DNA of 64,000 bases from Rosettibacter firmus (lineage in GTDB: Bacteria > Bacteroidota > Ignavibacteria > Ignavibacteriales > Melioribacteraceae). The DNA is taken from contig NZ_JAYKGJ010000001.1 of the NCBI RefSeq assembly GCF_036860695.1, positions 248,001 to 312,000 of the forward strand. The letters run 5' to 3'. The position numbers and the translations under genes were made by a program. Shown piece after piece: positions 48,988-49,169 of this stretch (the stretch's first letter is position 1; every line of letters begins with the position of its first letter). The notes beneath the pieces were generated by a model. It searched no databases and had not been told where the DNA came from. It worked only from the letters and a program-made list of their open reading frames with translations.

Positions 48988-49061
48988 GCGCCCGTAGCTC
49001 AATTGGATAGAGCATCTGACTACGGATCAGAAGGTTGAGGGTTCGAATCCTTCCGGGCGTA
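48988..49061 (+). tRNA. tRNA-Arg (ACG)
   Basis: 74-base cloverleaf: acceptor GCGCCCG with CGGGCGT (one G-U pair at the end), D-arm GCTC...GAGC, anticodon stem TCTGA/TCAGA with loop CTACGGA giving anticodon ACG, and T-arm GAGGGTTCGAATCCTTC. Discriminator A, no encoded CCA. A spurious reverse-strand frame covers it. Confidence 0.97.
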
Positions 49062-49098
49062 CTAATATTCTTCCTATTCAATCTAATTTCATATAGCG

Positions 49099-49169
49099 TC
49101 TGACTACGGATCAGAAGGTTGAGGGTTCTTCCATTGGAATCCCTTTGGGAGAATCCTTCCGGGCGTACT
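49099..49169 (+). pseudogene. Partial, interrupted copy of tRNA-Arg(ACG)
   Basis: The 49 bases at 49015-49063 (anticodon stem to just past the 3' end of the tRNA) recur exactly at 49099-49169, split by a 22-base insertion (49129-49150) in the T-loop between GGTTC and GAATC. The insertion consists of two 11-base palindromes, TTCCATTGGAA and TCCCTTTGGGA. The 5' half of the tRNA is absent, so it cannot fold as a tRNA. Immediate flanking bases also partly match (6 of 8 just upstream). It may be the scar of an integration event at the tRNA 3' end or a local duplication; no integrase is nearby. Confidence 0.85.

Follow-up and report, generated by a model that had tools for sequence, protein, structure and literature searches.

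An intact tRNA-Arg gene is followed downstream by a partial copy of itself that a short palindromic insert cuts in two, which raises the question of what this insert is and how it came to sit in a tRNA copy. The locus lies in the window, i.e. the whole 64,000-nucleotide stretch of DNA that was analysed, and its features are listed in Table 1. The tRNA-Arg segment 49015-49063 is repeated exactly in two blocks (30 + 19 = 49 bases) at an offset of 84 bp, and the 22-mer TTCCATTGGAATCCCTTTGGGA (10/22 G+C, 45% GC), made of exactly two abutting perfect 11-bp palindromes, separates the blocks in the T-loop between C56 and G57 (C56^G57). The first-pass annotation, made from the letters alone, had described the exact 49-base 3′ copy with its 22-base insert, the two adjacent 11-base palindromes in the T-loop and the 84-bp spacing with no element between; the sequence, ARAGORN and Rfam bear this description out, and the offset leaves no integrase-coding capacity between gene and copy.

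Table 1. Features of the tRNA-Arg locus and its interrupted copy (window coordinates).
Feature	Position	Strand	Evidence
Intact tRNA-Arg (anticodon ACG), source of the copy	48988..49062	+	ARAGORN; Rfam RF00005, 68.6 bits
D-arm remnant: weaker upstream continuation of the tRNA copy, from about 49088	49088..49098	+	alignment
5′ block of the copy, exact: anticodon arm, variable loop, T-stem 5′ strand to C56	49099..49128	+	sequence, alignment
Palindrome 1, 11 bp, TTCC-ATT-GGAA	49129..49139	.	sequence; covariation in relatives
Palindrome 2, 11 bp, TCCC-TTT-GGGA	49140..49150	.	sequence; covariation in relatives
3′ block of the copy, exact: G57 to the tRNA 3′ end plus one base	49151..49169	+	sequence, alignment

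The nearest ORFs are presumably a glmS-like gene upstream and, downstream, a small ORF and an outer-membrane efflux-like gene. A terminator scan found no terminators around the locus, and Rfam, run on the window and on the loci of six relatives, returned only ordinary tRNAs and sub-threshold noise. A same-genus genome (G002) has the intact tRNA-Arg without the copy; its flank differs too much for the insertion to be dated.

The first-pass annotation had proposed searching this genome and its relatives for the insert, and the search uncovered a family of such inserts. In pattern searches of the organism's own 3.24-Mb genome, the generic 22-mer with TC/GA flanks occurs five times, always in a copy of a tRNA T-arm, and the reversed control gives no match; chance is thereby excluded. 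A strict T-arm-flanked pattern has matches in 18 of the 294 class genomes and in 24 of the 395 phylum genomes, and a relaxed pattern with two mismatches allowed has at least one match in 84 of the 164 genomes of the order, some of these being due to chance; reversed-pattern controls are near zero. Occurrence is patchy, even between close relatives. At least 12 kinds of tRNA (Arg, Thr, Val, Gly, Ser, Glu, Gln, Pro, Cys, Lys, Asn and Phe) have copies with a 22-nt insert at C56^G57, and the cross-phylum consensus of the inserts, TNCC-NNN-GGNA twice, is unrelated to the host tRNA.

The exact window 22-mer is also found in a Bacteroidales MAG (L021, 280-420), within an otherwise complete tRNA-Ser(TGA)-like gene that carries a second insert in its D-loop, likewise at TC^GA. 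No intact Ser(TGA) was seen in this MAG, which misses several other tRNAs as well and is too incomplete to decide whether one exists. Viral scans yielded two genuine phage contigs with the insert; other viral matches to looser patterns had no paired palindromes. Both contigs (L099, 2270-2370; L100, 1770-1820) carry it in late-gene regions, one within a tRNA-Met-like sequence with a reduced D-loop between late genes, the other in a late intergenic region with a T-arm-like stem right before a start codon. No integrase was found near the insert within the stretch read of either contig.

The explanation that we favour, and regard as evenly poised between right and wrong, is that local tRNA copying combines with a DNA-level double-hairpin mini-element that inserted at C56^G57 of the T-loop and spreads within genomes. 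Its competitors are weighed below with the evidence that bears on each.

For statistics on placement, 142 distinct copies were gathered among the matches listed, and for 98 of them the fetched stretch also contains the matching intact tRNA; an intact partner gene is present at most checkable loci. The copy lies downstream of the intact tRNA and on the same strand in 92 of these 98 cases, at a median distance of 146 bp. Nearly all inserts are in the downstream copy, a point against the mini-element explanation, as a random strike on either of two tandem full-length copies predicts otherwise. Copy and intact gene agree best across the 3′ 17 nt, with an identity of 0.95, a value inflated by a selection rule that required 13/17 matches, then 0.88 over the 5′ part of the T-stem, followed by 0.61, 0.39 and 0.32, which is background. 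Near full-length copies are in the minority (Glu in G130, Glu-CTC in the organism's own genome, Arg in G031 and Gln in G043). At three loci the intact tRNA has A57 where the copy has G57, which also speaks against the mini-element. Spacers often duplicate the trailer of the local tRNA (30% at 80% or more identity). Some copies form tandem arrays: the one behind tRNA-Thr in G037 has 11 units, each about 113 bp long and with a terminator-like hairpin; another, behind tRNA-Cys, has 8 units of 92 bp; and a third, behind tRNA-Glu, has at least 5 units.

Several individual loci are also of note. Behind an intact tRNA-Arg(CCT) gene of the organism's own genome (L239, about 1990-2260; G000:C5) lie tandem copies that have an altered anticodon arm (CCCGTCTAAAGACGAGG) and no T-loop insert, possibly a pre-insertion state. 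In G028, an intact tRNA-Phe and a full-length, insert-bearing tRNA-Phe are separated by a 6.7-kb segment (L306; G028:C28:87500-97500), and type I restriction-modification-like genes come next after the interrupted gene. The same genome holds one Arg T-arm copy that is empty, beside a tyrosine-recombinase-like gene, and another, 11 kb away, that is filled; in this single within-genome pair, the filled and empty fragments differ by exactly 22 bp, with no target duplication.

The main rival is an origin by site-specific recombination, since the copied block and its downstream position resemble a displaced integration fragment of the T-loop class; the first-pass annotation had likewise compared the repeat to an attachment-site duplication. 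The copies would then be displaced attachment sites used by tyrosine recombinases of the T-loop class: either a tiny integrative unit or an island since deleted would have regenerated the tRNA and left T-arm, insert and 3′ end downstream, with the 22-mer in the element-borne half-site and the crossover 3′ of it. The shape of the block, from T-arm to 3′ end, and its place downstream on the same strand hold up this comparison, and the preference has parallels: Islander lists 3760 islands with a 3′ tRNA fragment vs. 159 with a 5′ fragment, as well as many T-stem sites (PMC4383910), and the core of phage Ms6 is 26 bp in the T-loop (PMC1762012). However, the median spacing is too short for an integrase, most loci have no room for an island, and none lies between gene and copy; the core shared with the tRNA is interrupted by the insert, which moreover occupies the putative strand-exchange loop. 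Clear att-like copies in G028, beside an integrase, and in G003 carry no insert at all. Furthermore, the trailer-derived spacers hold no shared element, some copies are near full-length, and one tRNA has its insert in the D-loop. We therefore consider this origin unlikely, though worth keeping in view, and return to the mini-element.

The structure of the insert was assessed on 36 distinct sequences picked for variety from a 97-locus table, which was compiled by hand from the pattern-search results. Under the two-hairpin model, 99.3% of cells pair vs. 80.5% in shuffles, and the covariation score is 0.523 vs. 0.136 in shuffles (0/500). The inserts used for statistics were gathered by patterns fixing the inner CC/GG bases; stem position 2, which no search pattern fixed, is C-G, G-C, U-A or A-U and almost always complementary, and changes at position 3 are compensated (TGGC/GCCA, TCAC/GTGA, TCGC/GCGA). 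The alternative of a single long hairpin shows no covariation excess, scoring slightly below its own shuffles, and was rejected as the conserved structure. Two adjacent hairpins are thus what covariation and the long-hairpin control single out. The stems of one insert are kept different, both being identical in only 2 of 81 distinct sequences vs. 19 expected, and this places mismatches in the long hairpin. Nearest-neighbour folding of single strands nevertheless gives other structures, chiefly the long hairpin, an advantage of about 4 (DNA) to 9 (RNA) kcal/mol; for this reason, it is from covariation that we infer a double-hairpin state.

The same data bear on another suggestion of the first-pass annotation, that part of the insert is a still older, diverged tRNA end. 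The match on which it relied, 49133-49151 against 49041-49059, is indeed 13 of 19 positions, but we judge it coincidental because in other genomes this tRNA carries inserts of different sequence at this site (e.g. TGCCAAAGGCATTCCTTCGGAA in G044) and because the insert has a covarying structure of its own. A nested tRNA end was rejected, as insert sequences do not track the host tRNA.

The hairpin loops follow a rule that holds on both strands. The 5′-proximal loop is R-N-A in 70 of 81 inserts read in sense and in 58 of 81 read in antisense, and the 3′-proximal loop is never R-N-A. Imperfect stems on the sense strand contain 4 G.U and 6 A.C pairs, a small mismatch sample with no G.U excess. Strand-symmetric loops and mismatches of this kind do not fit selection on one transcribed strand, and the strand symmetry suggests a function at the DNA rather than the RNA level.

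These observations count against a second possibility, in which the insert-bearing copies are functional RNAs, i.e. tRNA-like 3′ fragments co-transcribed with the tRNA in the manner of the E. coli tyrT repeats, and the hairpins are RNA structure. Such RNAs would account for the tandem arrays right behind tRNAs, some with a terminator-like hairpin per unit as in the 11-unit array of G037, for the conserved stems and for the tRNA-Met-like version in a phage late region. Apart from the strand symmetry and the missing G.U excess, they are difficult to reconcile with single-strand RNA folding, which favours another structure, with the patchy occurrence between close relatives, and with the Rfam scans of the window and the six relatives' loci, which gave no match, rtT included. 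We hold this possibility to be improbable, and continue with the DNA-level element.

Inserts within a genome resemble one another more than chance would give. The 22-mers at different loci of the same genome differ by a mean of 3.77 mismatches vs. 5.04 when permuted (p < 1/5000), and there are 10 identical same-genome pairs vs. 1.1 expected from the permutation test. In G004, one insert sequence is common to Ser, Thr and Lys copies; in the organism's own genome (G000), the window 22-mer recurs reversed in the Glu-CTC copy, so that Arg and Glu copies carry it in opposite orientations. Near-identical inserts were found at several unrelated places within each of G004, G139, G152 and G000. On the other side, no orthologous gain or loss of an insert between strains was caught. 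A mobile miniature element had been the other option raised by the first-pass annotation, and it gains support from 22-bp inserts that share one architecture and a fixed position, covary, and are alike within genomes.

Related palindromes occur outside this setting. Palindromes of the form TCCCGA...TCGGGA are dispersed genome-wide and strongly over-represented in several of these genomes (117 vs. 3 reversed controls in G018; 70 vs. 0 and 67 vs. 0 in further genomes), and they occupy anticodon, D and T loops of tRNA copies. In tandem tRNA-fMet-like copies (L316, 1-300; G054:C29), each copy has one TCCCGAT..ATCGGGA palindrome in its D-loop, a second following the D-arm and a third in the anticodon loop. 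The anticodon and T-loops of tRNA-Asn-like copies (L315, 640-1510; G043:C7) hold single 17-bp palindromes in place of the 22-bp pair. Outside tRNAs, 22-bp pairs lie at TTC^GAA in a repeat ending GAAATGACA (L147, 1657, in G119; L155, 1545, in G139); no empty counterpart of this context, CTCCTTC^GAAATGACA, was found for these two loci, again a point against the mini-element. A similar 22-bp pair lies inside another hairpin-like repeat of the organism's own genome (L089, 3704, G000:C3:9701; L090, 3647, G000:C6:5644), with flanks that are not TC/GA at both sides. The T-loop pair may thus be a special case of a broader tendency of palindromes to enter the loops of tRNA copies.

The insertion point, TC^GA, is the centre of the natural T-arm palindrome GGTTCGAATCC, and this, together with the palindromes that such copies also have in their anticodon and D loops, would suit an origin by template switching during replication at the T-arm palindrome, with no mobile element. 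Template switching copies local sequence, yet the cross-phylum consensus bears no relation to the host tRNA and different tRNAs can carry identical inserts, and we accordingly give this origin little credence. Least probable is a bacterial tRNA intron, removed from the RNA of an interrupted but functional gene: full-length interrupted genes do exist (the tRNA-Phe of G028, the tRNA-Ser with two inserts in L021), but G028 also has an intact tRNA-Phe at a distance of 6.7 kb, intact partners at most loci mean that the interrupted gene is not the sole copy there (the L021 MAG being too incomplete to judge), and no bulge-helix-bulge motif is visible.

Under the mini-element explanation, a local copy of a tRNA gene, usually 3′-partial, would first arise directly downstream of the intact gene, and a 22-bp palindromic mini-element (two abutting hairpins with 4-bp stems and 3-nt loops) would then enter C56^G57 of the copy. 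That duplication precedes insertion is our inference, which agrees with the untouched tandem copies in L239 and with the filled and empty pair in G028. The mini-element would act as DNA and spread inside the genome, either way round, through insertion or conversion guided by structure or sequence; it would presumably be actively mobile and may require a trans-acting enzyme. It would persist chiefly in the copies, since a tRNA whose sole functional T-loop took up an insert would be destroyed. More tentatively, and with somewhat less than even confidence, we propose a new class of miniature DNA elements in Bacteroidota and their phages that targets tRNA T-loops through strand-symmetric mini-hairpins, the tRNA 3′-end copies being either expendable landing sites or parts of a small site-specific recombination system. 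The insert system offers a defined case for testing the movement of tiny non-coding palindromes, and tRNA 3′ fragments behind tRNA genes need not always be island scars.

Among known systems, the E. coli tyrT repeats (rtT RNA) are tandem units with a tRNA 3′ end directly behind a tRNA gene, and in this they are like the arrays described here; we know of no T-loop insert in them. REP/BIME, the Rickettsia palindromic elements and other small bacterial palindromic repeats are short, non-coding and thought to be mobile. They resemble the insert in this, but are much longer and have other target preferences, and none of them is described as specific for tRNA T-loops in the open-access texts searched. 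In the open-access papers searched, double-hairpin elements are reported only from mitochondria, with no case in a bacterial tRNA T-loop, and no earlier description of a paired-hairpin T-loop insert was found. The recurrence of such inserts at one position in copies of many tRNAs, across the order and beyond, points to a previously undescribed miniature DNA element aimed at tRNA genes. For rtT, a 175-bp VNTR is listed (PMC2658671). The displaced tRNA fragments of islands (PMC4383910, PMC1762012) share with our copies the downstream 3′ fragment on the same strand, its extent from T-arm to 3′ end and the possibility of tandem arrays; they differ in that here no island or integrase lies between, the core is cut by a 22-bp insert and some copies are full-length.

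The closest likeness is to the double-hairpin elements (DHEs) of fungal mitochondria (Paquin et al. 2000, via PMC10085805). DHEs likewise consist of two adjacent hairpins, are non-coding, occur as near-identical copies at several places of a genome and are inferred to be mobile; they occasionally insert in structural RNA genes (rns, rnl), as the inserts here do in tRNA copies. DHEs were found by their high GC content in fungal mitochondrial DNA, whereas the inserts described here lie in bacterial chromosomes and phages, the one in the window is 45% GC, they are only 22 bp long, their stems are kept different, and they have one fixed target, C56^G57 of the T-loop, almost always in duplicated tRNA 3′ ends. 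Because compartment and base composition differ, and because mobility is so far putative, we describe the insert as resembling DHEs in architecture and probable behaviour without classing it as one. If the mini-element explanation is right, it would be a bacterial counterpart of the mitochondrial double-hairpin elements, aimed at a precise point of the tRNA T-arm and built to strict rules, namely perfect local palindromes, unlike stems, and an R-N-A loop first on each strand.
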